The notes under the pieces: model-generated | Told to the model about the DNA's origin: nothing | What the model saw: only the letters and a program-made list of their open reading frames with translations | Databases searched by the model: none | IMG/VR virus record: IMGVR_UViG_3300048590_000257 | Coordinates: 1-21,560 of that record | Origin: a virus | Length of the DNA stretch: 21,560 nt | Direction: 5' to 3' (one strand) | Part shown: positions 1,430 to 16,583 of the stretch, one piece after another | How positions within the stretch are numbered: position 1 is the stretch's first letter | Layout: the number at the start of each line of letters is the position of its first letter | Made by a program: the position numbers and the translations under genes

Positions 1430-2928
1430 GGACGGCTCTCCACGGGCTCCCACGATTCGCGATCGGCCGGGTCGCCGCCGCGGTATCGGTAGCCGTCGAC
1501 GATCTCGCCGGCGCGCGGCGGTCCGGCGCCGACATCCGGATCGCCGAACTCGGAGGTGTACGCCTGCTGCATGCGCGACTTCACGCCGTCGACGAACTCG
1601 ATCACGCGGCCGAGCTCGCGCTGAAACTCCTCGTAGCTCTGCGCCCGGTCGAGCGCGGCGAGGTTGTTCTGCAGCATCGTGTTTTCGCGATCGGACACCT
1701 GCCCGAGTGCGCCGCCGGTCTTCGACATATCGCGCATCGTCTGCAGCACGCGGAAGGCGACCTGCGATTTCAGGGTGTCAAGCTTCGCCGCGGCGTTCGC
1801 GCGATCGGTGCCCGGGATGTTCGGGAACATGCCAGGGATGCCGGTGATGCCCTTCAAGCCCGGGTGATCCTTCACCTCGCGCGCGATCTCGCCGAGGCGG
1901 TCGAGCTCGGCCACGCTCTGGTCGAGCGCAGCGCGCGCACGCCCAGCCTCGCGGTTGCGCCTGTCGATGCGCGCCTGGTCCGCGGGCGATAGCGGTTTCC
2001 CGCCGATAGGCTGGCCGTTGACCGTCACGGGCGTGGCCGTTCCGTCCGGGTTGATCTGGATGCCACGCGCCGAGTCGTAGGTCGGCTTGGCTGTCGCGGT
2101 GGGCTTCGGCCCGATCGGCGTCCCCTCGGCCGTCATCGCCGGTACGAACGCGCCGGTGCGCCAATCGATGAACCCGCCGCGGTCGGCGTCCCACGTGCGG
2201 TTGCCCTGCTCGATCTGCTGGCGCGTACGCGCCGCGCTCGCATTCGACGCATTCGCCGACGCGCGATCCTTCGCGACTGCCGCGTCGTGCAGCCCCGGGT
2301 CGTACTGATGCGCGCCGGTGAACGCGCCGAACGTGCCCATGCCGCCGGGCAGCGCGGCGAACAGATCGGGCGCGCCTTTGTTGGTGCCGGCACCGAGCAT
2401 GAATGCCGCGCGGTTCGGGTCGGTGGCGAGCATGCCAGGCGCGGCGAGCCGCTGCGCGCTCATGCCCGCTTCCTTCATCAGCGTGGCGATGTCGCCGACG
2501 CCCGAGCCCTTTTCCGCGCTCTCGGTGCGCGCGGCGTGCAGCGAGGCGATGGTCTCGCCCAGCAGGCGCAGCTGCTCGGGGCCGAGGCCGGCCTTCGCCC
2601 CCTCCGTCATCGCGACCCGCGCGGTCTCGAGCGGAATGCCCAGCCGGTAGGCGGCGTTCTGCGCGAGGAACTCGGGGTCGGCGCGCATCTCGCGCGCCCT
2701 GAGGTTCGCGCGTTGCATCTGCTCAGCGAGATCGACCTCGCGCACCTTCTGTGCAGCATCGGTGCGCGCCTTCTCGGCCTGCGCGCCGTACAAGTCGATC
2801 TGACCGCGCGTGGCGTCGGCCTTCAGGAGCCGATCCGTTTCGGCGTCGGCCGCCTGTTGCTTCAGCCCGCCGCCGAACAGACCAGCCAGTCCGGAGACTC
2901 CCGTCATCGGTGCATAGCCACGTGGCAT
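1426..2928 (-). CDS. Putative internal virion/ejection protein, 500 aa
   Basis: The start ATG at 2928 follows a strong Shine-Dalgarno-like GAGGTGAGA that overlaps the end of the upstream gene, and the stop overlaps the next start as ATGA. The N-terminus is short and Gly-rich (VSGLAGLFGGGLKQQAADAE), typical of phage core proteins. Residues about 25-90 are long amphipathic helix rich in Ala, Gln, Glu and Arg. The middle (about residues 280-310) has a glycine/proline-rich beta-like segment with NGQPIGGKPLSP. The C-terminus ends in DGYRYRGGDPADRESWEPV, a tail-end motif I recall from other phage structural proteins. No enzyme motif is seen. Function is inferred from the neighbours (adaptor, nozzle, gp14-like protein) as a component ejected with or packed around the DNA. 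Confidence 0.7.
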   Translation of the reverse strand: MPRGYAPMTGVSGLAGLFGGGLKQQAADAETDRLLKADATRGQIDLYGAQAEKARTDAAQKVREVDLAEQMQRANLRAREMRADPEFLAQNAAYRLGIPLETARVAMTEGAKAGLGPEQLRLLGETIASLHAARTESAEKGSGVGDIATLMKEAGMSAQRLAAPGMLATDPNRAAFMLGAGTNKGAPDLFAALPGGMGTFGAFTGAHQYDPGLHDAAVAKDRASANASNASAARTRQQIEQGNRTWDADRGGFIDWRTGAFVPAMTAEGTPIGPKPTATAKPTYDSARGIQINPDGTATPVTVNGQPIGGKPLSPADQARIDRRNREAGRARAALDQSVAELDRLGEIAREVKDHPGLKGITGIPGMFPNIPGTDRANAAAKLDTLKSQVAFRVLQTMRDMSKTGGALGQVSDRENTMLQNNLAALDRAQSYEEFQRELGRVIEFVDGVKSRMQQAYTSEFGDPDVGAGPPRAGEIVDGYRYRGGDPADRESWEPVESRP

Positions 2929-2932
2929 CGTC

Positions 2933-3685
2933 TCACCTCACTCGCATGCCCGTGAGCGAGCCGAAGCTGCTTTGCGGGATGGCGCTGCGCTGGCCGGACA
3001 GCATCGGATTGCCCGTCAACGTGCCGAAATTGCCGAGATTCGGATCGGCAGGCGCCGCGGGAACCGTCGTCCCGAACGCTCCACCCACGCCGGCGCCGAT
3101 CGCCGGCCCTGCGGCCTGTATCAAGCCACCCGCGAGCATCTGCCCCGAGTTCACGTTGCCTGCCTGATCGATGCGCGTGCGCGAGTTGCGCGCCGCCTGC
3201 TGCATGATCGACACCAGGTTGTCGACGTCGCTGGCGCCCTGCGCGTTCGTGAGCCCCTGCTCGAACATCATCTGCCGCCCGCCGCCGGCGCGCGCTGCCA
3301 TGCCTGCCTCGAGGATCGCGCGCTCGAGCTCCGCCGCGGCGCGCTTGGCCATCTCCGTGTCGTAGCGACTCGACGCCCCGACCGGGCGCGAAGCGCTCTG
3401 CGCGGTCGTCTGCGCTGCCTGCTGGGCGACGCCCTCGAGGCGCTCCTGCGCGGGCTGCACGACGCGCTGCAGCTGCTCCTGCGGGTCCGCGGCGACCTTC
3501 ACGGCGTTTTCGAGCACCTGTGCCTGGCGGCGGCGGTCGAACTCCTCCTGCTCGTCCTGCGCAGCCTCGATCTCGCGCCGCTGGCGTTTCTGCGCGTCGC
3601 GCTGCGCGTCGTACTGCAGGTACGCGCCGCCCGCCGAGGCGATCGCCGAGATGATGAGCGGTATCAGTAGATCGAGGCCAAACAT
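2933..3685 (-). CDS. T7 gp14-like internal virion protein with N-terminal membrane segment, 250 aa
   Basis: Residues about 3-23 are a hydrophobic segment (LDLLIPLIISAIASAGGAY). It is followed by a highly charged coiled coil of about 50 residues rich in Gln, Arg, Glu and Asp, a Gln/Ala-rich region, and a Gly-rich second hydrophobic stretch near residues 200-220 (GGLIQAAGPAIGAGVGGAFG). This order is the hallmark of gp14-type internal core proteins, which insert in the outer membrane during DNA ejection in T7; the comparison is by architecture, not by sequence match. The start ATG is embedded in TGATG with the upstream stop, and a GGGGAG ribosome site lies inside the upstream gene. The stop lies 4 nt before the next ATG. 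Confidence 0.7.
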   Translation of the reverse strand: MFGLDLLIPLIISAIASAGGAYLQYDAQRDAQKRQRREIEAAQDEQEEFDRRRQAQVLENAVKVAADPQEQLQRVVQPAQERLEGVAQQAAQTTAQSASRPVGASSRYDTEMAKRAAAELERAILEAGMAARAGGGRQMMFEQGLTNAQGASDVDNLVSIMQQAARNSRTRIDQAGNVNSGQMLAGGLIQAAGPAIGAGVGGAFGTTVPAAPADPNLGNFGTLTGNPMLSGQRSAIPQSSFGSLTGMRVR

Positions 3686-4407
3686 CAGAAGCTCCCCTGG
3701 ATGATCGTGCCGCTGCTCGGCCTGGCGATCGGGTACTGCGGCTGATACTGACGCTGCGCCTGCTGCCGGCCCGACAGGATCTGGTAGCGCGCGAGCGCCG
3801 GCTGCATCGCCTGTGCGTAGGAGTCCACGGCCGCGTAGTTCGTTGCGCCCTTGGCGGCGTCGACGTTCGAGGCCATCTGCGAGAGCGCGTTCTGCGTGGC
3901 GTTGCCGGCGTCCAACCCGGAACGCATCTGTGAGATGAGATTCAGGCGCGTCCGCTCGTCGTTGGCTCGCACCTCGTCGGCAGCCGACTGCGCGGTGTTG
4001 CTCGCGTCCATCAGCGCGCGGCCGAACTCGCGCTGTTCCAGACCCTGCGCGCTCACGTCGGCCGAGCCGCCGGTCAGGCCCGTGCGCGCAAGACCGAAGC
4101 GGAGCTTCCGCAACGTATCCTCGCGGTTCTCGTTCAGGCGGTTGGCCTGCAGGTCGTAGACGTCGTCGCGCACCTGGTTGTAGATCGGCGCACGCCCGCT
4201 CGGGTTATTGCCGGGTCGCCCGACGATGCCAAACAGGCGGTTCAGTTCGGCGATGCGTAGCGCGAGATCCCACTCCTCCTGCGACTCGCGCGCCGAATTC
4301 GGCAGCCACACCGACGTATTGCCGCCTGCGCGCGGCGTGGTCTGCAGGTAGAAGCCGTCACCGGTATCGGTCGATAGGTTTCCGCGAATTCCAGTCAGGG
4401 TGCTCAT
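3685..4407 (-). CDS. Putative virion-associated protein, 240 aa
   Basis: Not recognised as a named family. The N-terminal 60 residues contain a Gly/Ser/Thr-rich segment (GDGFYLQTTPRAGGNT) followed by a helical ESQEEWDLALRIAELNRLFG stretch. Residues about 90-200 are almost entirely predicted helix rich in Ala, Gln, Asn and Asp, and the last 30 residues are Gln/Pro/Ser-rich and probably flexible. Composition resembles the other ejection-block proteins. It starts in ATGA overlap with the nozzle gene and ends in TGATG with the gp14-like gene, so it is translationally coupled to both. A structural or ejection role is inferred from position. Confidence 0.65.
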   Translation of the reverse strand: MSTLTGIRGNLSTDTGDGFYLQTTPRAGGNTSVWLPNSARESQEEWDLALRIAELNRLFGIVGRPGNNPSGRAPIYNQVRDDVYDLQANRLNENREDTLRKLRFGLARTGLTGGSADVSAQGLEQREFGRALMDASNTAQSAADEVRANDERTRLNLISQMRSGLDAGNATQNALSQMASNVDAAKGATNYAAVDSYAQAMQPALARYQILSGRQQAQRQYQPQYPIARPSSGTIIQGSF

Positions 4408-5942
4408 CCCGCAACCCCCAGGTTGTCGAAGTGGTAGATCAGCGCCGACAGCTCGAAGGACTCCGGCGCCTCGTGCTCGATGACGGCGGCCACCGACGGC
4501 GCCATGAGTCCGACCGGGATCCAGCCCTGTGGGCGCGAATCGTCGGGGAGCATCGAGAGGTCGATCGGGCCGGCTTCGAATACCTCGGAGCCCGTGTCGG
4601 AGCGGAAGAGATGCGTGATCTCGAAGCGCCCAGCGCGCGCGCTGCGCGTGGCGACGACGTCCATCGCGTGGATCTGCTTCAGCGCCGCTGGCGACTTGAA
4701 GTCGAAGAACGGCGTGACGACGCGCACGCGCGGTGCCGCTCGCCCCTCGGCCGGCATCTCATCGGCCCATGCGTACGGATCGCGATCGGAACTGAGCGCC
4801 GCCACCGCGGCTCGCGCGTCGTCGTCGTAGGCGTAGTCCGGGTCGAGACGGTAGATGTCGCCGTCGGCCGAGCGCAGGTAGGCCGTGCCCTCGAAGTCCA
4901 CGGCGCCGGCGATCTCCCACGGGAAGACGTACTCGCTCCACGCGTAGACCTTCGCGGTGCGGCTGAACGAATACACGAGAGCGCGCGCACCTTCGATGAG
5001 CCAGAACTGTCCGAGGCTGGGGAAAAACCGCGCGAGCGCGCGCGTGGTGAACTGCGTGGCCAGGCGATCGACCGGCACGCCGACGTCCAGGTCCATCGCG
5101 TTGGCGTTCTGGGCGTTGAGCACGATGCTGCGCACGCCGGACGGCGAGAGGAAGAACAGGTCCGCCCCCACGTTCGCGCCCGTGTCGCCGGCCACCTGGC
5201 CCACGGCGATTGTTTTGTAGAACCGCATTTCCGCCGGGTCGGGGTCGACATCCCACAGCTGCGCGGCGTCCCCCGTGCTCACCACGAGCCGGCCGTCGAA
5301 CTCGCCCAGCGCGGCAATCGTGTTGCTCGATCGCGTCTTGCGGTTCGTCGGCAGGAAGCCCGCGTCGTCCTCGGCCGTCCAATCGCGCGGATCATCGGTC
5401 TTGGAGAATCGCACGACGCCCGAGGGGTCGCCCGCGAACACCTTGCTCGCGATCGGAATCGCCGTCGTGCCGTTCGGGCAGTTGGCGTCCTCGATGCGGT
5501 TGGCAGTCAGGTCCGTCGGCTTGCCGAAGAAGTGCCGCACGCCGACGTCGGTCGCCGCGACCACGTACAGCGAGTCGGCCACGAGGAAGGCCGCGTGCAC
5601 GCGATCGATACGATCGCCCGGGTTGCCCGGTATGCTGCCCGCGTAGTCCAGTCGCATCGTGCGGTAGCGCGCGGAGTCCTGCACGAACGGTACGGAGGTG
5701 ATCGCCTGCACCTGCGGGTTCGCGCCGCCCCAGAAGCCGGTGAGGCACCCCGGGCCACTGAACAGCCCCCGCACCCCCGGCCCCCAGGACCACACGTAGC
5801 GCGCACCGGGGCGCTTTCGCACCGCCTTGCCGGGCGTCACGTAGGCGTTCCGAAGTTCCCGGAAGCGGTTCGCATCCTGAATGTTCGCCGGGCGCGAGAG
5901 ATCTACGCCGCCGGAGAACTCCGCATAGACGATGCTCGCCAC
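4404..5942 (-). CDS. Tail nozzle / stabilization-type beta-propeller protein, 512 aa
   Basis: GTG start at 5942, one base after the adaptor stop (TGATGTG), with a G-rich ribosome site just upstream. The N-terminus reads FSGGVDLSRPANIQDANRF and then RNAYVTPGKAVRKRPGARYV. The pattern of FsGG, an Asn in the first strand, a Gly turn and kRPG is characteristic of podovirus nozzle proteins that form the tail tip below the adaptor (T7 gp12 / P22 gp10 class). The rest is rich in beta-strand-like repeats with aromatic and Gly-Asp turns (DSLYVVAATDVGVR, GTAYLRSADGDIYRLDPDY), as expected for a propeller. At 512 aa it is closer to P22 gp10 than to the 794-aa T7 gp12. It directly follows the adaptor gene, the usual order. 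Confidence 0.75.
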   Translation of the reverse strand: MASIVYAEFSGGVDLSRPANIQDANRFRELRNAYVTPGKAVRKRPGARYVWSWGPGVRGLFSGPGCLTGFWGGANPQVQAITSVPFVQDSARYRTMRLDYAGSIPGNPGDRIDRVHAAFLVADSLYVVAATDVGVRHFFGKPTDLTANRIEDANCPNGTTAIPIASKVFAGDPSGVVRFSKTDDPRDWTAEDDAGFLPTNRKTRSSNTIAALGEFDGRLVVSTGDAAQLWDVDPDPAEMRFYKTIAVGQVAGDTGANVGADLFFLSPSGVRSIVLNAQNANAMDLDVGVPVDRLATQFTTRALARFFPSLGQFWLIEGARALVYSFSRTAKVYAWSEYVFPWEIAGAVDFEGTAYLRSADGDIYRLDPDYAYDDDARAAVAALSSDRDPYAWADEMPAEGRAAPRVRVVTPFFDFKSPAALKQIHAMDVVATRSARAGRFEITHLFRSDTGSEVFEAGPIDLSMLPDDSRPQGWIPVGLMAPSVAAVIEHEAPESFELSALIYHFDNLGVAG

Positions 5943-5943
5943 A

Positions 5944-6651
5944 TCAGCCCCCCGGGACCGACGTGGGCGGCAGCAGGTACGGCACGTCTTCGTCGAGCAC
6001 GCGGCGCTCGCTGCGCGGCGTGACGACCGTCGCGCGCCGATGCCGGCCCTTCAGATCGAGCAGCATGGCTTCGAGCTGTTGCGCGTACTGCGGGCCGTCC
6101 GGCTGTCGGTAGTGCAGCTTCGCGTTGGTCAGCGCATGCAGGAACAGCGGCCCAGTCGGGATCGAAGCGACGTGACTGTCCTCGGTGAACGGCAGCAGCG
6201 ACCGCACGTATTCGATGCGCAGCTTCGAGTCGACGATGGGCTCAGGGTGCAACTCGATCTGCACCTTCCATGACGGATTGACGGCATCCGCGTTCCACCG
6301 GATCTCGTAACGGCAGGGATCGGCGGGCGCGGAGAAGTTGCGCTGCTGCACGCTGATGCCCTCGCGCAGCGCGAGCCAGGCGCCCCAGGAGAGGATCCAT
6401 ACGCCCTCGATGCGCTCGAGGTTGCAGTCGGTCGGCAGGTCGTACCAGATCGAGCCGTCTGCGACGTCGATGACCGCAGAGGCGCGCAGGTGCTTCCACT
6501 CGCCGACCTCGTAGAGCGCCTCCTGTGCGCGCTGCAGGAACGAGTCGAGAATGGGCTTGGCGAACGAGATTCCGGCCGCACCACCGATCCGCACCTGTAG
6601 CTCGGTGCGCAATGATTCGAGCGTTCGCGGGGGCGTGGCCGAGAACGTCAC
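5944..6651 (-). CDS. Head-tail adaptor, tail tubular protein A-like (T7 gp11 / P22 gp4 class), 235 aa
   Basis: The start is the GTG at 6651, in GTGA overlap with the upstream gene and preceded by AAGGAAAAGG. The frame stays open much further upstream into the capsid gene, but that extension is a shadow. Residues 10-50 form helices (LESLRTELQVRIGG, ILDSFLQRAQEALYEVGEWKHLR), followed by a beta domain with WYDLPTDCNLERIEGVWI; the LP-DC-R-I pattern is typical of adaptor proteins docking under the portal. The C-terminal half includes a helix with LFLHALTNAKLHYRQPDGPQYAQQLE. Length fits the family (166-240 aa). It lies between capsid and nozzle genes as expected. The last 30 residues are Arg-rich and Pro-rich. 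Confidence 0.75.
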   Translation of the reverse strand: MTFSATPPRTLESLRTELQVRIGGAAGISFAKPILDSFLQRAQEALYEVGEWKHLRASAVIDVADGSIWYDLPTDCNLERIEGVWILSWGAWLALREGISVQQRNFSAPADPCRYEIRWNADAVNPSWKVQIELHPEPIVDSKLRIEYVRSLLPFTEDSHVASIPTGPLFLHALTNAKLHYRQPDGPQYAQQLEAMLLDLKGRHRRATVVTPRSERRVLDEDVPYLLPPTSVPGG

Positions 6652-6974
6652 GTGGTGGCCTTTTCCTTCGCGCGCGCTTTCGGGCCGACGGCGAGCTGCT
6701 GCAGGTCGGCGATGAACTGGCGCATCGTGGTGTAGGCGAGGTCGACGTAGGAGCGCCCGCTCTTGGGCTCCTCGCCGTACAGGCGCGCCAGGCGCTCGTA
6801 CTCGATGCGCGGATCGTCGATCGTCACCTCGTCGGGTGTGGCGTCGATCGCGTCGAGCTTGATCTGCTCGCCGTGCACCGCCTGCAGCACCGGGATTTCG
6901 TGCTCGCCGACGTCGACGAGGAGGGTCTCCGCCATGTCGCGGCGGATGGGAACGCGCTTGATCGAGATCTGCAT
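6648..6974 (-). CDS. Conserved capsid-adjacent protein, 108 aa, unknown role
   Basis: Starts at ATG 6974 with GGAG five bases upstream. A short basic N-terminus (MQISIKRVPIRRDM) is followed by a beta-rich part with EIPVLQAVHG and DEVTIDDPRIEYERLARLYGEE, then a helical VDLAYTTMRQFIADLQQLA and a basic tail (KARAKEKATT). I do not know a named function. The EIPVLQAVHG ... EYERLARLYG layout looks like the small acidic proteins often found just after the major capsid gene, which may act in head completion or capsid assembly. It couples to the adaptor gene by GTGA overlap. Confidence 0.75.
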   Translation of the reverse strand: MQISIKRVPIRRDMAETLLVDVGEHEIPVLQAVHGEQIKLDAIDATPDEVTIDDPRIEYERLARLYGEEPKSGRSYVDLAYTTMRQFIADLQQLAVGPKARAKEKATT

Positions 6975-6996
6975 GGAGTCTCCGGGTTGAAAGGGC

Positions 6997-7010
6997 GGGC
7001 CCGAAGGCCC
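6997..7010 (-). other. UUCG-tetraloop hairpin in the capsid 3' untranslated gap
   Basis: In the 45-nt gap after the capsid stop (7020) the minus strand reads GGGCC-TTCG-GGCCC, a 5-bp GC stem capped by an exceptionally stable UUCG loop. It is followed by GCCCTTTC, so the U tract is too short for a good intrinsic terminator. It could attenuate transcription into the 108-aa gene or protect the 3' end of an abundant capsid mRNA. The hairpin is seen directly; the role is inference. Confidence 0.45.
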
Positions 7011-7019
7011 CGCGGATGC

Positions 7020-8081
7020 TCAGGTGATCGAGATCACACCTTGCGCCTTCGAGTGGTTCAGCGTCATCGCGCCTTTCCAGGTCAGCGCCATGTACACGAC
7101 GTACTTGTCGTACGGGCGCGGCGGCTTGCGGCTGACCATGTCCTGCCCCTGCAGCGGGCGCAGCTTCAGGTGCCGCAGGTTCAGCATGTAGCAGCGCTTG
7201 GCCCAGTGCACCGCGGGCGTGACCGCCCCGCCGAAGTTGTCGTCCCACTCCGGCGCCCACTGGATGGGCACGCCGTTGAAGGCAAGGCCCGTGATCGCCG
7301 GATCGAGCTTCGTGCCGCCGGTGGGCGCGATCTGGATGTAGCGCTGGATGACCGAGGCGTTCGCCGCGGCATCGCGGAACATGTCGATGTAGTCCTTGCC
7401 AGCGATGATCGTGGTCGGACGACCGCCGTTGCGCGAGCAGGCACGCCACATGTTCTCGGTCTTGCCCAGGATCGTGCCGGCCGCGAGCCCCGTCTCCCGA
7501 TTCGAGAGCCACGCCGGCACGTCGAACCGATCGATGCCGCCGACGACTTCCGTGCCGGTCGCCGTGGGCGCGGCCTTGATCGGCACGAGGAAGTCCAGGC
7601 CCGCGATCGCGTCGGTCGAGGACGAGCCGTCCAGGTGCAGGGCCTGCGAGAACTTCTCTTCGTAACCCAGCCGAAGCACCTCGCTCTGCTCGGTGAGCAG
7701 GTTCGTGAGCTGGATCATCTCGGCGTCGCTCGCGCTCGCCTGCCGATCGTCGGTGACGATGATCCCGTTCTGCGCGAGCCGGTCCTCGTCGAGCATCAGG
7801 CCGTCGTGCGCACTGCGCCACGGGTACTTTGCCTGCTCGATGGTGTTGCGCTCGTTGTAGGTCACCGAACCCGAGCCGCGGTACCACTGGAAGTTCGAGC
7901 TGTAGCGCATGCGCAGCTGCTCGACGACGTATTCCTTCGCGCCGGGAAACGACGTCTTGCGCTTGTTCAGCTCGTTCATGAGCGGCCGATCGACGGCGAT
8001 CTGATCGACGGGGTTGTTCTTCAGGTAGAAGTCCAGGCCGACCTTTGCGGCCTCGGCGAGCTGTCCGGCAGTGAACGGCAT
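7020..8081 (-). CDS. Major capsid protein, 353 aa
   Basis: Begins MPFTAGQLAEAAKVGLDFYLKN at ATG 8081, six bases after a full GGAGG ribosome site, which fits a highly expressed gene. Residues about 20-90 contain the E-loop-like region (NKRKTSFPGAKEYVVEQLR) and the capsid-like run GSGSVTYNERNTIEQAKYPW, followed by a helix (DAEMIQLTNLLTEQSEVLRLGYEEKFSQALH) that would be the spine helix of an HK97-type fold. The C-terminal half has SNRETGLAAGTILGKTENMW and IIAGKDYIDMFRDAA. The sequence style is that of the capsid proteins of BPP-1-like podoviruses; this is from memory, not an alignment. It lies between scaffold and adaptor. It has its own long leader downstream of a terminator, so it is probably transcribed separately from the portal-scaffold genes. 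Confidence 0.85.
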   Translation of the reverse strand: MPFTAGQLAEAAKVGLDFYLKNNPVDQIAVDRPLMNELNKRKTSFPGAKEYVVEQLRMRYSSNFQWYRGSGSVTYNERNTIEQAKYPWRSAHDGLMLDEDRLAQNGIIVTDDRQASASDAEMIQLTNLLTEQSEVLRLGYEEKFSQALHLDGSSSTDAIAGLDFLVPIKAAPTATGTEVVGGIDRFDVPAWLSNRETGLAAGTILGKTENMWRACSRNGGRPTTIIAGKDYIDMFRDAAANASVIQRYIQIAPTGGTKLDPAITGLAFNGVPIQWAPEWDDNFGGAVTPAVHWAKRCYMLNLRHLKLRPLQGQDMVSRKPPRPYDKYVVYMALTWKGAMTLNHSKAQGVISIT

Positions 8082-8086
8082 TTCAG

Positions 8087-8091
8087 CCTCC
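8087..8091 (-). promoter_or_regulatory. Ribosome binding site of the major capsid gene
   Basis: GGAGG on the minus strand, five bases before the ATG at 8081. It is among the best Shine-Dalgarno matches in the window and fixes the capsid start. Confidence 0.8.
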
Positions 8092-8225
8092 TGTGCGAAT
8101 TGGATGGAAGAACCCTTTCGGGGCCGCTCCGATTCGCGGTTGGCGAGGCCGCATTCAGCCGATTGCTCGGGCGGGCGCGCGCTGACGAGGCGTGCAGGTG
8201 CTGTCAGGTGCGACCGTACCGAGGA

Positions 8226-8243
8226 CGAATTGGCTCACTCCAC
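8226..8243 (-). repeat. Direct repeat copy A, GTGGAGTGAGCCAATTCG
   Basis: Minus-strand copy of an 18-bp sequence that differs by one base from copy B at 12212-12229. Similarity continues a few bases further (TCCTCGGTA here, CCCCAGGTA in copy B). It sits 6 bases downstream of the scaffold terminator T run, at the beginning of the capsid leader. It is probably a shared promoter-like or regulatory element, or a module boundary. Confidence 0.65.
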
Positions 8244-8249
8244 AGTGCG

Positions 8250-8274
8250 AAAAAAGCCCGCCATGTAGGCGGGC
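8250..8274 (-). terminator. Rho-independent terminator after the scaffold gene
   Basis: On the minus strand GCCCGCC-TACAT-GGCGGGC is followed at once by six T residues (8255-8250). The 7-bp perfect GC stem with a 5-nt loop is a textbook intrinsic terminator, placed 45 bases after the scaffold stop. There is no T run on the plus side, so it acts in the minus direction only. Confidence 0.9.
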
Positions 8275-8319
8275 CAAGGTGGCGCAATGCCACCGGGAGG
8301 AGACAACCGGGAAAAGGCG

Positions 8320-9420
8320 TCAGGCTGTGCCGATCGCGCCGGCGATGGCTTCCTGCATCGAGGACGGCTCGCGCCGGCCGACGTTGGCCGCCGACGGGCG
8401 CAGCGGCTGCGGCGTGTTCGGTGTCGGCGTCGGGCGCGGCGGTGCCATCGTCGTCATCGTCTGGCCGATCGCGTCGTAGGCCATCTGCAGCGCGCTCGCC
8501 CAGTGCTCGGGCGGGATGGTCTCGGCCACGCGCTTGGCGTGCTGCTGCATCAGCGCCTGCTTCTTCGGCCAGTCGAGGTCGGTCTGCGACCACTTCTGGA
8601 CCATCGCGCTCACGCTCTGCGTAGCGCGCTGCACGGCCTGCACGTACTGCTGCTGCGTGCTCTGCTGGGCCTGCGCCGCCTGCTGCTGCTGTTGCTGCTG
8701 CGCCTGGAACTGTCGAGCCTGCAGCACCTGCCGGGCGTACTCCGGCGTGATCTTGCCGTCCTGCACGGCCTGCGCCAGGTCGGGGTGCTGCACGAACGGA
8801 TCGGAGCCGTTCGGATCGCGCCCCATGACCGTTCGGAACTGCTGCGTGAGGTGCCCGAGCAGCGGCTCGATCGCCTGCCAGTTGCCGGCCTTCACCGCGC
8901 GGGTGAAGTCGAGCATGGCGAGGATCTCGCGATCGTCGGCTCCGGTGTCGGCGATCATCTGCTGGAACGCGGTGACGGTGCCGCGCATCTCCTCGAGCTG
9001 CGCAGTCGCGGTTTCGGCGGCCGTCGTCGCCTCTTTCGCGCGCGTGACCAGCGCCTGGAAGCGCTCGCGCGCCTCGGGCTTCAGGCCTTCCGGCTCGCGG
9101 TACGGGTCGTCGGCGGGCGGCTGCTGCTCGCCGGGCTTCGCCGCGGGCTTGGCGGGCTGCTGTTGCTGCGCGTTCGGGTCAGCATCGGCGGCTGCATCCT
9201 TCGGCAGGAAGCGCCCATCGGGACCTCGCGGACGATCGTCGCCAGCGATGGGCTGCTGCGCACCGTCATCGTCTTCGCTCGGCTGGCCCAGCGAGCCGCG
9301 AAGCGCATCGAGCATCGAACCGGGGCCGCGGTCGTCGGTGCTCTCGGCTTCGGGCTGCTGGCCTTGCTCGGGCGCGTCGAGCGCGCCGTCGTCGATCTGC
9401 TCGTTCTGGTCGGGATCCAT
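8320..9420 (-). CDS. Capsid scaffold protein, 366 aa
   Basis: The start is ATG 9420, preceded by AGGAGG; the frame is open further upstream but only into the neighbouring gene. The N-terminal 120 residues are acidic and disordered (Asp, Gln, Pro-rich). Residues about 125-170 are helical (ARERFQALVTRAKEATTAAE). The middle has a long Gln tract (QFQAQQQQQQQAAQAQQ) inside a helical region, then VQKWSQTDLDWPKKQALMQQH. The C-terminus is a Pro/Thr linker followed by a short basic/helical end, as expected for the coat-binding end of a scaffold. Acidic, helical, Gln-rich proteins directly between portal and capsid genes are scaffolds in P22-like and BPP-1-like phages. No protease motif is visible. Confidence 0.75.
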   Translation of the reverse strand: MDPDQNEQIDDGALDAPEQGQQPEAESTDDRGPGSMLDALRGSLGQPSEDDDGAQQPIAGDDRPRGPDGRFLPKDAAADADPNAQQQQPAKPAAKPGEQQPPADDPYREPEGLKPEARERFQALVTRAKEATTAAETATAQLEEMRGTVTAFQQMIADTGADDREILAMLDFTRAVKAGNWQAIEPLLGHLTQQFRTVMGRDPNGSDPFVQHPDLAQAVQDGKITPEYARQVLQARQFQAQQQQQQQAAQAQQSTQQQYVQAVQRATQSVSAMVQKWSQTDLDWPKKQALMQQHAKRVAETIPPEHWASALQMAYDAIGQTMTTMAPPRPTPTPNTPQPLRPSAANVGRREPSSMQEAIAGAIGTA

Positions 9421-9424
9421 CCGT

Positions 9425-9430
9425 CCTCCT
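9425..9430 (-). promoter_or_regulatory. Ribosome binding site deciding the scaffold start
   Basis: AGGAGG on the minus strand, four bases before ATG 9420. It selects this start over the in-frame codons that lie further upstream inside the 144-aa gene. Confidence 0.75.
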
Positions 9431-9431
9431 G

Positions 9432-9866
9432 TTACGCCGCGTCGGTCAGCGGCGACCAACCGGTATTGCCGGTGCCGGTTTCCTTCACGTAGACGATCGT
9501 GTCTTCGCTGCCGTCGTATCGAATGGCGACCGTGCCCGGGGCTGCCGCGACCGCGCCCTCGGGCGTGCCCTTGACGAACAGCAGGGGCGGGCCGAGCGTC
9601 TTGTCGATCTCCAGCGTCGCCGTGCCGGTGACGGGCACGCCGCGCACCACCACCGAATACGGGAAGCGCTGCTCTTGCGTCGTGCTCTGCGGGATCGTGC
9701 CGAAGGCCCAATCCTGGTACGTCAGCCCACCATCGGCGCTGACTTCGACCTTCGCGGTGGACGACGCCGGGGTGATGAGGCGCACCGGCGCGCCGGGAGG
9801 CACCGCGAAGACTTTCGAAGCTTCGACGCCCGCCTTCAGGGGAAAAGTGACGACTTCGCCTGCCAT
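9432..9866 (-). CDS. Putative capsid decoration/head protein, 144 aa
   Basis: Starts at ATG 9866, one base after the portal stop (TGAAATG), with GGAG upstream. The sequence is almost entirely beta-like: EVVTFPLKAGVEASKVFAVP, VRLITPASSTAKVEVSADGG, SVVVRGVPVTGTATLEIDK. The last 35 residues (GTVAIRYDG, then TIVYVKETGTGNTGW) match a short motif usually found at the ends of phage fibre or appendage proteins. A beta-rich, low-charge protein between portal and scaffold is best read as a capsid cement/decoration or head-fibre protein. A structural component is likely; its exact place is not provable from sequence. Confidence 0.65.
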   Translation of the reverse strand: MAGEVVTFPLKAGVEASKVFAVPPGAPVRLITPASSTAKVEVSADGGLTYQDWAFGTIPQSTTQEQRFPYSVVVRGVPVTGTATLEIDKTLGPPLLFVKGTPEGAVAAAPGTVAIRYDGSEDTIVYVKETGTGNTGWSPLTDAA

Positions 9867-9867
9867 T

Positions 9868-11814
9868 TCACACTCCTACGAGTTCAGCGGGCGAGCCCGC
9901 AGGTTGGGGATTCATCGCCGCGTCGATGATCTCGGGCGGCAGTTCGGCCGGCATGCCCTGCTGCGGCAGCCCTTCAGCCGGGGTGGCGCCCGGCATCGCA
10001 CCGGGCATCGGCAGTGCCGGCAGCGGCGGGAAGAACTTCTCGATGTCGATGCGTTCGTCGAAGCGCTTTAGCGTCTCGCGCAGCAACTCGATCACGCCCT
10101 CGGCCTGGTCGTTCAATCCGGCTTGGCGGAACTGCAGCACCTGCTGCATGAACGACATCAACTGCGGGGCGAGCTGCACCCACTGCTCGCGCTCCTGGTG
10201 GCGGTTCGGCTTGCCGGTGGAGCCCGCCCGGATGCGGATCGCGACCATGTCGACGACTTCATCGCGCGGGAGCGTCGGCCACACGTACCCGGGGCCGGCC
10301 ACGCGCTCGACCTGTTGCGGCGTGAGTTCCAACAGGAAAATCTGCGCGGCGTACTCGGCCATCTCGCCGATGAATTCCTCGATCGTGTCCTGCCGATAGG
10401 CGGTGCGCGACTGCATGCCCATCGACTGAATCTCGGCCTCGGTGGCGGTCTTGGCCTTCTGAATGGAGGCTCGTGACGCGTCGCTCGCGCCAGACGTTTG
10501 CTCGAAGTCGCGCAGCACAGGCGTCGTGTCATAGGCGGTCGGGTCGATCGGCGAAGCCGGGATCGGAACAAGCTCACCCTGCAGCGGCGCGTTCGCGCCG
10601 TTCGTCGCGACGCCGATCATCTGCCGGCCGCGCCGGTTCGCGAGGTTGTCGACGTCCTGGTCGGTGAGGGCGCCCCCCTTGCGGTAGGCCCAGCCCGGGC
10701 GGTTTTCCTTGCGCGCCTGCGCAAGCTGCGTGCGCATCGCGTTGTACTCGTCCTGCAGCCCGGTCCACTGCTCGACGTCGGAAAGGGGATAGAGCTGACC
10801 GTCGACCTCGTTCCAGTAGAGCGCGAAGAACGGGTACCAGCGCCGCCCAACGCGTTCCGGGCGGAACGGCTCACGCGCCCATTCCCTCGCGCCGAACTCC
10901 AGCGTGTAGATGGTCTGGCTCGCACGGTCCCAGATCTCGAGCACGCGCACGAACTGCTCGCGCTCGCGCTTTCGGTTGCCCGCCTGATTGTCGCGAGCCT
11001 CGCGGCGGTCGCCGTACTTCGTGCCCTTCGGCTTGCGGCCGAACCGCTCCTCGAAGTCCGAGCAGGTCATGAAGAGCTGGTGCGCGATGGCGCGAGCCTG
11101 CGGGTACTCGCTGAACGTCGTCAGGCTCTCGTCGAGGATCAGGATGTCCTCGTCGGCGACGAAGTCGATCACGAGCCCTTCCTCGACGAGCACCTCGACC
11201 TGCTGCTCGAGCGCCGCGAGCTGCTGCTGCAGTTCCGCTTCTTTCGCCTCGGTGTCGCCGTCGCCGCGCTCGATGCTGGCGGTGAGCGCCCGGATGCGCG
11301 CGAGGTTGTCCTGTGCGTCGGCGATGCGGTTGACAATGACCGGGTCCTGCTGGAAGTCGCGCTGGTAGCTGACCTTCAGCCAGGCGACGCCGTTCGTCAT
11401 CGCGCTCGGGATCGCGCGCGTGATGCGCTTCTTGAGCCGGCCGCCGCGAACGAACATCCGGTTCAGGACGATCTGCAGCGTCTGGCAGAAGGTCTCCAGT
11501 GCCCCATAGGACTGGTCTTGCACCTGCTCCTCGGGCGATACATCGATCTCGGGATCTTTCGCGTAGTACAGCGGCACGAGCGTCTGCATGATCCCGAGGA
11601 TCAGGTTCGCCCGCACTTCCTCCGGGTCGCGCTTGGTCTCGTCCTCGAGCCCCTGCACGCCGCGCACGTACTTCTGCAGCTCGACGTTGCGCTTGCGCCG
11701 CGCCTTGTTGTCGTCGGTCGCCGATTCGATGGACGACTGGAAGCGCTTGATGAGCGCCAGCGTTCGCGGATCGGTCTCCGGCTGTGCTGGCGTTGTCTGC
11801 TGCTCGTCAGCCAC
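9868..11814 (-). CDS. Portal protein, 648 aa
   Basis: GTG start at 11814, overlapping the previous gene by 8 nt with only a weak ribosome site, so expression probably depends on coupling. The N-terminal helical region (TLALIKRFQSSIESATDDNK, ARRKRNVELQKYVRG) leads to EVRANLILGIMQTLVPLYYAKDPEIDVSP, then a helix-rich stem/clip region with a coiled coil around residues 170-215. WYPFFALYWNEVDGQLYPLSDVEQWTGLQDEYNAMRT is the wing-type segment common to podovirus portals: the Y-L-S-D, Q-D-E-N and T-like pattern. The C-terminus is long and Pro/Met/Gly-rich, as in barrel-bearing podovirus portals. Length, location after the terminases and the neighbours agree with a portal of the P22/BPP-1 type. Confidence 0.85.
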   Translation of the reverse strand: MADEQQTTPAQPETDPRTLALIKRFQSSIESATDDNKARRKRNVELQKYVRGVQGLEDETKRDPEEVRANLILGIMQTLVPLYYAKDPEIDVSPEEQVQDQSYGALETFCQTLQIVLNRMFVRGGRLKKRITRAIPSAMTNGVAWLKVSYQRDFQQDPVIVNRIADAQDNLARIRALTASIERGDGDTEAKEAELQQQLAALEQQVEVLVEEGLVIDFVADEDILILDESLTTFSEYPQARAIAHQLFMTCSDFEERFGRKPKGTKYGDRREARDNQAGNRKREREQFVRVLEIWDRASQTIYTLEFGAREWAREPFRPERVGRRWYPFFALYWNEVDGQLYPLSDVEQWTGLQDEYNAMRTQLAQARKENRPGWAYRKGGALTDQDVDNLANRRGRQMIGVATNGANAPLQGELVPIPASPIDPTAYDTTPVLRDFEQTSGASDASRASIQKAKTATEAEIQSMGMQSRTAYRQDTIEEFIGEMAEYAAQIFLLELTPQQVERVAGPGYVWPTLPRDEVVDMVAIRIRAGSTGKPNRHQEREQWVQLAPQLMSFMQQVLQFRQAGLNDQAEGVIELLRETLKRFDERIDIEKFFPPLPALPMPGAMPGATPAEGLPQQGMPAELPPEIIDAAMNPQPAGSPAELVGV

Positions 11815-12190
11815 GGTCGGCGAACATCCGTTCGAGCTTCAGGCGCTGCTCACCGCTCAGGCCCGCCGATCCATCCGTGCGAGCCTCGACCGTCTGTTCG
11901 GTCTCGTCGGTGAGCGATGCCATCGCAGCCAGGCCGTCGCGGATCGTGTCGGCGAGGCCGGCTTCGGCGATCGAATCGGCTTCGAGCGCGGACTTCGCTA
12001 TCGGCACGAGGATCGGAGCGCCTTCGAACAGGTGCCCACCGATGCTGTAGACCCGGAACCGGCGCAGATCGCCGCGCTCGTCGCGCAACTCGTCGACGCC
12101 TTCGTACCGGGTCGAAGCGCCTCGGGCGGCCAGCAGCTCGGCGAAGGTCAACGAGGGGCGCGTCTCGCGCAGGCGGGCGATGAGGTTCAT
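11807..12190 (-). CDS. Hypothetical protein, 127 aa, upstream of the portal
   Basis: Not recognised. ATG 12190 is preceded by AGAAGGGC. The N-terminus is helical and basic (NLIARLRETRPSLTFAELLAARG), the middle has short strands (RRFRVYSIGGHLFEGAPILVPI), and the C-terminus is acidic helix with DETEQTVEARTDGSAGLSGEQRLKLERMFADRG. It overlaps the portal start by 8 nt, so it is likely cotranslated with the portal. It is the first gene after a 47-nt gap that contains the repeat also found before the capsid gene, so it probably opens the portal-scaffold transcription unit. Confidence 0.7.
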   Translation of the reverse strand: MNLIARLRETRPSLTFAELLAARGASTRYEGVDELRDERGDLRRFRVYSIGGHLFEGAPILVPIAKSALEADSIAEAGLADTIRDGLAAMASLTDETEQTVEARTDGSAGLSGEQRLKLERMFADRG

Positions 12191-12211
12191 GGTTCGCCCT
12201 TCTACCTGGGG

Positions 12212-12229
12212 CGAATTGACTCACTCCAC
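12212..12229 (-). repeat. Direct repeat copy B, GTGGAGTGAGTCAATTCG
   Basis: Lies in the 47-nt gap between the coiled-coil gene and the 127-aa gene, 21 bases before ATG 12190. It differs from copy A (8226-8243) at one position and has the same orientation relative to the downstream genes. No sigma70 promoter is evident around it. Confidence 0.65.
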
Positions 12230-12237
12230 CTTCGCGA

Positions 12238-12483
12238 TCAAGCGGTCGTTTTCAATGTCGCCGCCATCGCCCGAATCGCGTTGTGCGCTTCCTCGACGCA
12301 GGAGTTGTCGGACACGCGGCGAATCACTTCTTCGGCGGATACGCGCAGCGCGTGCATCCTCGCCTTGAGTGAGGCGACCTCGTTTTCGAGGCGCTCCTTG
12401 TCGGCGGCGAGCTTCGCGTGCGCCGTCTCGTCGATGTCCAGGCAGCCGCCCTTGCTGCGATGGCCGGTGTAGCGGATGGTCAT
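12238..12483 (-). CDS. Small coiled-coil protein, 81 aa
   Basis: The start ATG overlaps the stop of the upstream gene as ATGA. The first 15 residues are polar (MTIRYTGHRSKGGCLDID); residues about 20-50 form a heptad-like coiled coil (HAKLAADKERLENEVASLKARMHAL), and the rest is helical. No membrane segment is visible, which argues against an Rz-type spanin. It is coupled with the Ea22-like gene. Function unknown; similar coiled-coil miniproteins accompany Ea22-like accessory genes in other phages. Confidence 0.65.
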   Translation of the reverse strand: MTIRYTGHRSKGGCLDIDETAHAKLAADKERLENEVASLKARMHALRVSAEEVIRRVSDNSCVEEAHNAIRAMAATLKTTA

Positions 12484-12872
12484 CGCAGCGCGGTATCGAT
12501 TGCGGCGCGCAGATCGTCAGCGGTCGGCTTCGAGTCGCCGGCACGCAGGATCGGCGTGGCGAACACGTACAGCGTGTCGCCGCCGATGCCGCGCTGCCCG
12601 ATCATGTACTCGGCCATCCTCTCGATGCGCGCTGCGTCGGCGCGCAGCCGCCTCACCTCGGCGACCAGCGGCGCGATGTTCGCCGGACTGCATGCGGCGA
12701 TGTAGGCGGCCGTCTCCAGATCGATGATCTCGTTGGAATCGGCGATGTACACCACGCCCCCGGGATTACGGCGACTTTTCGCCAGCACCTCACCACCTTC
12801 CTCGCTCCACCACGGTCCGGGGTATGGACCACCTCCCAGAGCCTTGATGATCTCGTCGTCATACTTTGCCAT
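12480..12872 (-). CDS. Ead/Ea22-like accessory protein, 130 aa
   Basis: Starts at ATG 12872 with GAGGGA upstream. Residues about 48-80 (DLETAAYIAACSPANIAPL, then VAEVRRLRAD) match the ubiquitous phage motif with AAYIAA-SP and LxxEVxRLR seen in the lambda Ea22/Ead family. The N-terminus has GGGPYPGPWW and a short strand segment (GGVVYIADSN). Family members are usually in early accessory regions and have no defined biochemical role; here it is between the large terminase and the portal genes. It is coupled to the downstream coiled-coil gene by ATGA. Confidence 0.65.
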   Translation of the reverse strand: MAKYDDEIIKALGGGPYPGPWWSEEGGEVLAKSRRNPGGVVYIADSNEIIDLETAAYIAACSPANIAPLVAEVRRLRADAARIERMAEYMIGQRGIGGDTLYVFATPILRAGDSKPTADDLRAAIDTALR

Positions 12873-12881
12873 CAGGTTCCC

Positions 12882-14450
12882 TCACGCCTTATACCGACTC
12901 ACCGGCTTTCGCTCCGGTGCGTCCAACACGCGCGCCGGCACCCTGCCCAACGTCGGCGGGGGCGGCGCGGCCTTCTCGGCTTCGGGCAGGAGCCCCTTGC
13001 CGAACTTCTGCATGCCGCGGGCGGCCAGCGACAGCACGTCGACGCCGTCGTCGTACGCGCCGGCCGGGAACGCCTGCAGTTGATCCATGAGCGCAGCGAC
13101 CCACGGGCGCCCCTCGGGCACCGCGAGCCACCCCATCGCGACGAGCGCCTGCAACGACCTGGCGCGCGTGGGCTTGTCGTGGATCGACGCGAGCCACTCC
13201 ATCCAGCAGGCAATCTGCCGCTGCTGCATGCGCTTGATGAGGAACGGCTCGACAGCGCGACGGATCGGCCCGGCCTCGCCGAACCAGATCGCGGGCTTCC
13301 ACTTCTCGACAAGGTCGAGCTGGCGCTCGATCCAGACGTCCGAACCGGTGCGATCGCGCCACCAGTCGAGCAGGTGCCAGCGCGACTCATGGTCGATGCC
13401 GATGATCCCGTGTTCGGTGTAGTCGCCGCCGTCCTCGGTCACGGCGTAGTCGCTCGCGCCGATGATCACCATGCCCTTCGGAGCGATGCCGTAGCGGGCG
13501 ATCTTCGTCGTGTCGAAGTAGCCGTCGCTGTCCGGCGCGGGGCGCTGCTGGTAGAGCGAGGCCCAGGTGCGCGCGTTCGATCGGAAGTTCGCCCAGTGCT
13601 GTTCGTCGAACCACTCTGGCCATAGCATCTCGCCACGCGCACGCCCGAGCGGATCGTCAGCGCGTTCGGCTTCGGCCGGCAGCGAGAGCACCTCCCACGT
13701 CTGCCCGTCGCGGCACTCGATCATCCCGGAGCGACCATCGTAGCCCTCGGGCAAGATCGACCCGGCGAGGTCGGCCTCGTGCCATCGCGTTTGCACGAGC
13801 ACGATCCAGCCGCCCGGGATGAGGCGCGTCTTCAGGTCGTCGTCGTACGCCTCGCGCGTCTTCTTCCTGATCACCGGGCTGTCGGCGTCCTCGCGGCCCT
13901 TCACCGGATCATCGATCAGCAGCCCGTTGGCGCGGTTGCCGGTGATGCCCGAGAGGATGCCGCCGGCGAGGTACTCGGAGCCGTTCGTGAGGGCCCATTC
14001 GTCGGCCGCCGAGGTGTCCGGCGCGATGCCGGCGCCGAAGATCGCTTCGAACCCGGATTGCCGGCAGATCTGCCGCGCGCGCCGGCCGTGACGACGCGCC
14101 AGATCCGACCCGTAGGACGCGAGAATGATCCGATAGCCCGGGTGCTTGCCCATGAGCCACGTCGGCGCGACGACGCTCGTGTAGGTGCTCTTCGCGCTGC
14201 CTGGCGGCATGAAGACCATCAGCCGACCGTGACGCCGCGCCGCGGTGCGCTCGATCGCCTCGAGCAGCAGCCGATGGTGCGCGGTGACGTTCGTCTCGAT
14301 TGGCCGAAACAGCCACTCGTCCGGGTCGTCGCTCGCCGGCTTGCCAGGAACCTCGATCGCGTTCGCATAGTCGACCAGCGAGGCACGGGCGCGGCGCCGG
14401 CGCAGCAGCTCAGCCGCGGCTTCCGCCGGCGATAGCTTCGAGGTCTGCAT
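12882..14450 (-). CDS. terL: Terminase large subunit, 522 aa
   Basis: The DNA-packaging motor ATPase and nuclease. Walker A is PPGSAKST (residues 82-89), Walker B is LLIDDP (177-182), and the coupling motif is VLVQTRWHEAD (217-227). The C-terminal RNase H-like nuclease has candidate metal ligands D334 (GASDYA), E392 (WFGEAG) and an Asp cluster at 467-471 (YDDGVD). Length and motif order are normal for TerL. It sits after the small subunit, overlapping it by 41 nt, so the two are probably translated together. The ATG at 14450 is retained because the residues after it (LSPAEAAAELLRRRRARASL) form the expected N-terminal helix. The Ala in Walker A in place of the usual Gly is common in this terminase group. 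Confidence 0.93.
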   Translation of the reverse strand: MQTSKLSPAEAAAELLRRRRARASLVDYANAIEVPGKPASDDPDEWLFRPIETNVTAHHRLLLEAIERTAARRHGRLMVFMPPGSAKSTYTSVVAPTWLMGKHPGYRIILASYGSDLARRHGRRARQICRQSGFEAIFGAGIAPDTSAADEWALTNGSEYLAGGILSGITGNRANGLLIDDPVKGREDADSPVIRKKTREAYDDDLKTRLIPGGWIVLVQTRWHEADLAGSILPEGYDGRSGMIECRDGQTWEVLSLPAEAERADDPLGRARGEMLWPEWFDEQHWANFRSNARTWASLYQQRPAPDSDGYFDTTKIARYGIAPKGMVIIGASDYAVTEDGGDYTEHGIIGIDHESRWHLLDWWRDRTGSDVWIERQLDLVEKWKPAIWFGEAGPIRRAVEPFLIKRMQQRQIACWMEWLASIHDKPTRARSLQALVAMGWLAVPEGRPWVAALMDQLQAFPAGAYDDGVDVLSLAARGMQKFGKGLLPEAEKAAPPPPTLGRVPARVLDAPERKPVSRYKA

Positions 14451-14991
14451 CAGAGAGCGCGTGGCGGTGCTCGTGCTGCACGGGGCCGCCGCCCTTGCCG
14501 GTGTGTTCGACCTTGTCGGTCAGCATGCCGAGGTGACGCATGGCGAGCGCCAGCGCGGCGCCCTTGTCGAACACCTTCGCCTTCTTGGTGAACATCGGCA
14601 CGTGCTTCAGATTCCCACCCTCGTCGATCGAAGCACCGCCGGCCATCTCGACAACATCGATGCCCGCGAGCGCCGCCGCCGCGTCATCGTCCAGATCGGT
14701 CGGCTTCTTGAGCGAGCCGTCGTCGCTGTACAGCTTGCGGATGTCGAAGAACGCGATCCTCGCCAGCTCCTGCAGCACTCGGTCCTGCGTGATGTGCGTG
14801 CGCCGCTCGCGCGCCCTCATGGCTTCCTGCACTGCAGCAACCACCTGAGCATTCCTGAGTAGCCGCGAGGCGTTCACCTCCGCCGCATTTCCGCGTGCTG
14901 CGTATCCCGCGCGCGCGTAGGCAGCCGTCGCGTTCAGATCGACGAGGTACTCGTCGACGAAGCGCTGCTGTTTCGGCGTCAGCGGTTTCAC
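14410..14991 (-). CDS. terS: Terminase small subunit (Terminase_2 type), 193 aa
   Basis: GTG start at 14991 in GTGA overlap with the HTH gene. The N-terminal domain reads PLTPKQQRFVDEYLVDLNAT, AAYARAGYAARGNAAEVNASRLL and NAQVVAAVQEAMRAR, the classic Terminase_2 small subunit sequence that forms an HTH for DNA recognition at the packaging site. The middle RVLQELARIAFFDIRKLY is the usual oligomerisation helix. The C-terminus is low in complexity with a His/Gly-rich stretch that may contact TerL. The frame is open well upstream of the GTG, but the homology begins at KPLTPKQQ. Confidence 0.92.
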   Translation of the reverse strand: MKPLTPKQQRFVDEYLVDLNATAAYARAGYAARGNAAEVNASRLLRNAQVVAAVQEAMRARERRTHITQDRVLQELARIAFFDIRKLYSDDGSLKKPTDLDDDAAAALAGIDVVEMAGGASIDEGGNLKHVPMFTKKAKVFDKGAALALAMRHLGMLTDKVEHTGKGGGPVQHEHRHALSDADLEAIAGGSRG

Positions 14992-15296
14992 ATCCTCGCC
15001 CTGTAGTAGCTCACCACGTGCCGTTTCCTGCCTGCGCCTTCGGTTTCGTACTCGACGACGCGCCGGTAGGCAACGAACACCTGCCGATCCAGCCGCATGC
15101 GGGTGAGCGTGTTGCGCACGGTATCCACGCGCTCGATACCGAGTCGCTCGGCCAGCTCGGCGGCGCACAGCGCGCGCCGCCGCAGCCAGAACAGCACCTG
15201 CTCGCGCATCGGTGCCGCGCGCAGCAGACGCCGCGGCTGAGACCGCCGCTCGTCGTCGGCAACGATGGCCGTGATGCCATTCAATCCCCGCTCCAT
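14988..15296 (-). CDS. Winged-helix/HTH protein, about 102 aa
   Basis: The C-terminal 75 residues (MREQVLFWLRRRALCAAELA, ERLGIERVDTVRNTLTRMRLD, RQVFVAYRR) form a winged-helix DNA-binding domain with a clear recognition-helix segment (RVDTVRNTLTRM). The start is uncertain: ATG 15296 has no ribosome site, and the TTG at 15311 is less likely. Either would overlap the membrane miniprotein. It lies just before the terminase genes and couples to the small subunit by GTGA. A role in control of late transcription or of packaging is possible but unproven. Confidence 0.65.
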   Translation of the reverse strand: MERGLNGITAIVADDERRSQPRRLLRAAPMREQVLFWLRRRALCAAELAERLGIERVDTVRNTLTRMRLDRQVFVAYRRVVEYETEGAGRKRHVVSYYRARM

Positions 15297-15388
15297 CCGC
15301 GCGCAGCCCAACGCCAGAGCGCCAAGAACATCGCCATCGCGCCGATGAACGCACCGAAAAGCATGGCGAGGAGGATAGAGGCCGTCAT
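15281..15388 (-). CDS. Membrane miniprotein, 35 aa
   Basis: A short ORF starting at ATG 15388 in ATGA overlap with the upstream gene, with AGGTGG six bases before it. Residues about 4-26 form one strong transmembrane segment (ASILLAMLFGAFIGAMAMFL), followed by a positively charged, aromatic end (WRWAARGW). It fits a type of tiny phage membrane protein that is easily missed in annotation. Function is unknown. It is not part of a recognisable holin/endolysin cassette, as no lysis enzymes are adjacent. Confidence 0.6.
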   Translation of the reverse strand: MTASILLAMLFGAFIGAMAMFLALWRWAARGWSGD

Positions 15389-16569: not shown

Positions 16570-16583
16570 CGTCGTCTGCTCCC

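Follow-up and report, generated by a model that had tools for sequence, protein, structure and literature searches.

The capsid gene of the phage studied here lies behind a leader of a kind in which hairpin loops are complementary to the short strand just upstream, and comparison of these leaders gives good support to a family of capsid-leader pseudoknots arranged in a row. In the window (the whole stretch of 21,560 nucleotides analysed), this leader is preceded by a GC-rich hairpin with a run of U and by an 18-nt element that recurs, in gene direction, ahead of other late units. We consider the chances about even that the capsid gene forms a separate late transcription unit, with its leader tuning translation or stability.

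The 21,560-base record has no close match among 50,697 phage records, the sole match there being to a replication gene of Burkholderia phage Magia (73.5% over 2% of the window), and a distant DNA search with the capsid region gave no matches. A 42,433-base contig represents the identical phage (its capsid protein, L002, is 100% identical). At the start of the longer twin contig (L214:1-1377) lies a phosphoglucomutase/phosphomannomutase gene, perhaps host DNA beside a prophage or else a phage-borne gene. The late genes are on the minus strand, in the order terminase, 127-aa ORF, portal, 144-aa ORF, presumed scaffold and capsid:

14450-12882, minus strand: terminase gene
12190-11807, minus strand: 127-aa ORF ahead of the portal gene
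9868..11814, minus strand: portal protein gene (phrog_12082, E 2.4e-12)
8320..9420, minus strand: presumed scaffold gene, named by position only, start codon put at 9420
7020..8081, minus strand: major capsid protein gene, 353 aa (phrog_9953 'major head protein', E 3.3e-38)

The capsid protein is 21-28% identical to annotated capsid or head proteins of Microcystis phage Mae-Yong1326-1 and Myxococcus phages Mx8 and Mx9. The presumed scaffold has no PHROG or Pfam match and owes its name to its place between portal and capsid. Between these two genes lie the elements that bear on transcription, together with one further copy upstream:

8250..8274, minus strand: intrinsic-terminator-like hairpin (7-bp all-GC stem, 5-nt TACAT loop, U6)
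8226..8243, minus strand: candidate late promoter element, block 1, GTGGAGTGAGCCAATTCG, directly behind the U-run and ahead of the capsid gene
8214..8220, minus strand: GGTACGG, putative weaker block 2 of the candidate promoter, picked by eye from aligned sites
12212..12229, minus strand: second copy of the candidate promoter, GTGGAGTGAGTCAATTCG, ahead of the 127-aa ORF and portal gene

The initial annotation had described a strong hairpin with a 7-bp GC stem and U6 between scaffold and capsid, a 168-nt capsid leader and a capsid GGAGG, and all three are present. The minus strand at 8274-8250 reads GCCCGCC, TACAT, GGCGGGC and TTTTTT in turn, the leader occupies 8249-8082, between the U-run and the ATG at 8081, and AGGAGG stands at 8092-8087, five bases ahead of that ATG. 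A search of both strands for an all-GC stem of 7 bp with T6 behind it gives one hit in the whole window and none in 200 dinucleotide-preserving shuffles. A loose terminator scan of window positions 1-20000 is without enrichment (12 sites observed against 8.3, sd 2.7, in shuffles), and among these 12 the hairpin at 8274-8250 has the most GC pairs. Below threshold, Rfam likens it to terminator-bearing small RNAs (best E 0.017). A GC-rich hairpin with a U-run directly after it is the form of an intrinsic terminator, and this one is predicted to terminate transcription. Terminator-like hairpins are also seen in L012/L003, L013, L015, L016, L018 and L019, and the terminator is present in seven of the nine leaders of the window's own clade; the clade members lacking it, L021 and L053/L004, have the 18-nt element. 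In L004 (3820-3845), the place of the terminator is taken by an 8-bp GC hairpin without a U-run, which overlaps the start of the promoter-like element. Among leaders of at least 60 nt, the terminator was counted in 7/55 of a first set of relatives and 1/26 of a new set, counts that omit L012 and L018, whose hairpins show in their sequences. Judged from these sequences, the terminator is a feature of the clade and the structured leader the general one.

The element behind the hairpin, GTGGANTNANNCAATTCG, is exact over 18 nt at both 8243-8226 and 12229-12212, and block 2 appears in the aligned sites, by eye, as GG[TC]A or similar about 9 nt past CAAT. A slightly narrower form of the element has no exact match in 200 shuffles of the window, whereas, once three mismatches are tolerated, it is no rarer than expected by chance (two copies in 19 of 100 shuffles), which counts against it. 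When the window, L003 and L004 are aligned, the stretch right behind the hairpin is better conserved than the hairpin itself, and the element is conserved in all nine clade leaders. A search for its 15-base core with at most one mismatch finds 14 sites in five related records, all 14 in late-gene direction, and a reversed control pattern finds none in the same five. These five, inspected out of 80 loci listed for the element (118 stretches in all), amount to about three independent phages, as G002/G003 and G006/G007 are near twins. G001, G002, G003 and G007 have three sites each, one in front of the portal unit, one in front of the capsid gene and one in front of a collagen-like gene; G006, a shorter contig, has two. 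The window, L134 and L100 each have their two copies in one variant particular to that phage, while the three sites of G002 and G003 differ in variant, which counts against this pattern. Two sites with two mismatches face against the late genes; they fall at the same place in two twin contigs, in coding-like sequence, and are treated as chance. The copy ahead of the portal unit overlaps the end of the upstream ORF (12229-12221, minus strand; …KVE stop, GTG GAG TGA). In L161, G001:31893-32400, the gene behind the third element has GPKGDRGDPGPEGP repeats of collagen-like type and is probably that of a tail fibre.

The same element thus opens several late units, in gene direction at 14 of 14 sites, and we infer that it is a late promoter. 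As it lies behind the terminator and recurs at two other late units, the capsid gene probably has a late promoter of its own. In window positions 1-20000, no sigma-70 promoter was found. A single-subunit RNA polymerase (PF00940) was found in none of nine records, a search that is uninformative since its control was likewise found nowhere, and Pfam reveals no polymerase among nine further ORFs of the longer twin contig. In phage T7, a late promoter adjoins the capsid gene (gene 10), and the candidate here would likewise stand immediately ahead of one; however, the window element is unlike the T7 promoter, and the leader here holds pseudoknots.

Separate control of the capsid-to-scaffold ratio had been suggested in the initial annotation, and it is supported by the element's presence in 9/9 clade leaders, seven of them with the terminator, and by its recurrence at late units. 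The second option given there was regulated read-through, in which one late transcript runs through both genes and the hairpin curbs capsid expression until an antiterminator acts. The terminator in 7/9 clade leaders and the lack of a sigma-70-type promoter in window 1-20000 would fit this, but other late units are also preceded by the element, two clade members have it without the terminator, and it would be odd to block the capsid gene alone when capsid is needed most. Read-through is rather unlikely, and it is not needed to explain the data.

In relatives of the window, capsid leaders show a short strand, a few bases and then a hairpin whose loop complements the short strand. Such a unit constitutes an H-type pseudoknot, running S1a, loop 1 (UG..A), S2a, loop 2 (UUC or similar), S1b, 0-1 nt and S2b. 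In L041 and in phages of the L309 type, S1 measures 4-5 bp, the GYC of the loop being predicted to pair with GRC upstream. In the window, the leader contains:

8177..8207, minus strand: pseudoknot unit 1, proposed from comparison with L003 and other clade members
8136..8160, minus strand: pseudoknot unit 2, proposed by a permissive finder (L011 has the same sequence) and conserved in clade alignment A10
8087..8092, minus strand: AGGAGG ribosome-binding site of the capsid gene, read from the sequence

In unit 1, S1 would pair TGAC (8206-8203) with GTCA (8186-8183), and S2 would pair GCACGC (8195-8190) with GCGCGC (8182-8177) with one A.C mismatch, because of which the automatic finder misses the unit in the window; this counts against it. 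In L003, the unit 1 stem is intact. Within the close clade S1 of this unit is nearly invariant, and covariation comes from S2 and from the wider family. In unit 2, S1 would pair GGC (8160-8158) with GCC (8144-8142) and S2 GCGG (8152-8149) with CCGC (8139-8136). The window's own pseudoknot copies are imperfect, then, and are proposed on the strength of the comparison. Behind unit 2, GCGAATCGGAGCG (8139-8120, minus strand) is nearly unchanged in eight of nine clade rows, L004 differing. Two other folds were considered and rejected: a nested consensus fold of the window, L003 and L004 has an unfavourable covariation term (+2.34), and a hammerhead ribozyme, judged by eye from the CUGA/GAA spacing, fails in that neither the A of CUGA nor the spacing is kept in L016 and L021.

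The wider family was assembled by a capsid-protein search, which gave three close loci and then the best 80 of 169 relatives, and by a second profile search, from which the best 80 of 204 relatives were taken. Five bacterial genome contigs also carry relatives; four come from betaproteobacteria, among them Herminiimonas contaminans (a prophage, L387) and Rhizobacter; a scan of genome contigs with A2 found none. The 80 loci of the first set yield 67 distinct leaders, measured from the upstream ORF to the capsid start, of which 55 are at least 60 nt long and 12 are shorter (15-52 nt). The short ones, where only 15-52 nt separates scaffold and capsid, belong to L044-L051, L054-L059 and L066; they have no array because this space is too small, which counts against a general role. 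For the new set, 87 loci were intended; ten lacked a measurable leader, and L346 was excluded beforehand since its capsid start is missing. Twenty-seven leaders proved new, the others being copies of earlier ones, and exclusion of one 8-nt leader left 26.

The pairing that makes these hairpins pseudoknots was assessed by permutation, with hairpins chosen by stem energy alone and the pairing of each loop with its own upstream 11 nt compared with permuted ones. In 159 hairpins, pairing with the own upstream strand scores -5.75 against -4.64 when permuted (z -6.8), and in 84 hairpins of held-out leaders -5.89 against -4.62 (z -5.1), while 180 hairpins from 54 non-redundant leaders give z -5.9; no permutation of 300 reached the observed pairing. 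The downstream 11 nt show no excess (-4.47, -4.08 and -4.33 in the three sets). At the level of the family, the loops thus pair with a strand outside the hairpin, and the pairing is kept despite change of sequence, as in H-type pseudoknots. The permutation test was relied on in place of the MAFFT alignment A10, in which stem S2 is shifted by one column between rows.

Counts of whole units agree with this, with some reservations. A loose finder, whose geometry was fixed on the first set before the new leaders were scored, detects 59 units in the 26 new leaders (60 nt or longer), against 32.0 (sd 3.6, maximum 39) in 30 shuffles; 25 of the 26 have a unit, and 22 of them more than one. In the first set of 55 leaders, it detects 116 units against 56.3 (sd 6.1) in shuffles. 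The signal of this finder is not strand-specific, reverse complements giving 51 units in the new set and 67 in the first, and the loose geometry has a high background of about 5 per kb in coding DNA, both of which count against it; one reason for the antisense units may be that loops could also pair with the strand of the next unit. A narrower consensus unit, in which loop 1 begins with U and loop 2 ends with a pyrimidine, follows a rule made after both sets had been seen. Its density is 6.75 per kb in leaders of the first set and 7.47 per kb in 23 new leaders, compared with 0.82 and 0.75 per kb in flanking coding DNA and 1.27 and 1.87 per kb in the leader antisense. Among the 56 consensus units, S1 helices are of 37 kinds and S2 strands of 44, and the unpaired bases are kept; of 104 units taken without the consensus rule, 95% have a pyrimidine at the end of loop 2. 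By a permissive count that includes chance units, 0, 1, 2 and 3 units are present in 4, 7, 32 and 11 of 54 leaders, respectively. Between the end of the array and the start codon lies a median of 47 nt (1-104 nt in 35 leaders), so that in most leaders the ribosome-binding site is not covered.

The leader could also be a series of plain hairpins in which a protein binds a conserved UUCGYC loop and no loop-to-linker pairing forms. UUC is indeed kept in loops before the paired stretch, and in L035 and L041 the loop cores alone recur as direct repeats of 12-14 nt; still, the complementarity of loops to their own linkers beats permutation in both sets and the paired stretches vary, with 37 types in 56 units, making this quite unlikely. 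An ordinary spacer with a terminator, its structure without a role, is very unlikely in our estimate: the window leader by itself is no more stable than its shuffles (z -0.61, which counts against a fold), and some relatives make do with just 15-52 nt at this place, yet such a spacer would not account for the conserved element, the family-wide pairing signal and the enrichment over flanking DNA.

At Rfam gathering thresholds, there are no matches in the window and 14 relatives, and in open-licence literature no paper dealing with pseudoknots of phage capsid leaders was found. The nearest working parallel is the operator of T4 gene 32. This is a translational operator, by which the product of the gene (gp32) is autoregulated; it folds as an H-type pseudoknot, about 28 nt long, which precedes the ribosome-binding site in the mRNA leader (PMC535899). 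T4 has one such pseudoknot, at the 5' end, with UUAAA/UAAA repeats behind it; in an operator of this type, the protein encoded by the gene binds its pseudoknot, repressing translation. An H-type pseudoknot in a phage mRNA leader is common to both, whereas the capsid leaders have several units in a row instead of one and precede a capsid gene rather than the gene of a single-stranded DNA-binding protein. UUAAA/UAAA repeats are absent from window 8249-8082, and protein binding is putative here.

Tandem units are found in ToxI, a type III antitoxin RNA described as an array of 36-nt H-type pseudoknots, with pseudo-ToxI repeats in phage PhiTE (PMC3475682, PMC5086642). ToxI/PhiTE and the capsid leaders have in common tandem H-type pseudoknots of about 30-36 nt with a terminator nearby. 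In contrast, the repeats of ToxI are nearly identical, whereas stems in the capsid leaders vary between units; the ToxI terminator separates the array from the toxin gene, and the one here stands ahead of the array, which the capsid gene follows. Identity with a ToxI-type array was rejected for the window leader, which lacks near-identical repeats and a toxin downstream, and PADLOC gave no match for the four proteins tried. It is hardly credible, despite the array in ToxI and the repeats in PhiTE, that the leader serves as a phage-borne decoy RNA, or as a mimic of an antitoxin, directed at a type III toxin of the host, since units within an array are not near-identical (no 12-nt direct repeat in the leaders of the window, L043 and L025), the gene found after the array is for the capsid and not for a toxin, and the array stays ahead of the capsid gene in distant phages.

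In phage P22, synthesis of the scaffolding protein is autoregulated, and a post-transcriptional balancing of scaffold and capsid is what we propose here; the regulated gene is that of the scaffolding protein in P22 and would be the capsid gene in the window, and we know of no pseudoknot array in the P22 case. Capsid genes resembling that of Mx8 also tend to have a gap in front, exceeding 100 nt in 70 of 75 measurable loci (of 80). Their leaders, in L226-L305 (e.g., L227:1817-2000), are structured differently and about 187 nt long. Twenty-two chosen leaders of this kind have a different shared fold, in which 18 of 35 predicted pairs are changed on both sides in at least one sequence and a stem CAUCUGA/UCAGAUG lies right before the ribosome-binding site; Rfam has no match in 14 loci. 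A leader motif common to the window and Mx8 was rejected, as the matching AATTCGTCC falls inside the upstream coding sequence of Mx8.

Taken at the strength given at the outset, the favoured explanation is that translation or stability of the capsid mRNA is controlled via recognition of the leader fold. Portal-scaffold transcripts would end at the hairpin at 8274-8250, and a phage late promoter at 8243-8226, perhaps with 8220-8214, would start the capsid mRNA, possibly near the first pseudoknot. In the resulting leader, a few H-type pseudoknots in a row would precede a strong ribosome-binding site that is left open. The pseudoknots would set the yield of capsid protein: they may shield the mRNA from decay or, in the boldest form of control by fold recognition, bind a phage protein, for example capsid or scaffold in surplus. 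With terminator and element both in place, as in the window's clade, the ratio of capsid to scaffold would come under separate control. More tentatively, and with the balance of probability against it, the capsid leaders may represent a new class of regulatory RNA, made of small pseudoknots in a row with freely varying stems and fixed, unpaired UG..A and UUC, whose fold is recognised by a phage protein, so that the capsid mRNA senses free capsid or scaffold protein and sets the ratio for the shell.

Capsid and scaffold are needed in a set ratio, and to our knowledge little is known of how phages outside the model systems control it. The sequences described here suggest two layers of such control: in one clade, a transcription unit of its own for the capsid gene, and much more widely, from betaproteobacterial prophages to metagenome phages, a structured leader. 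If the array acts as an operator or stabiliser, it would be a compact RNA part found by comparison alone, and a reason to seek leader RNAs before capsid genes generally.
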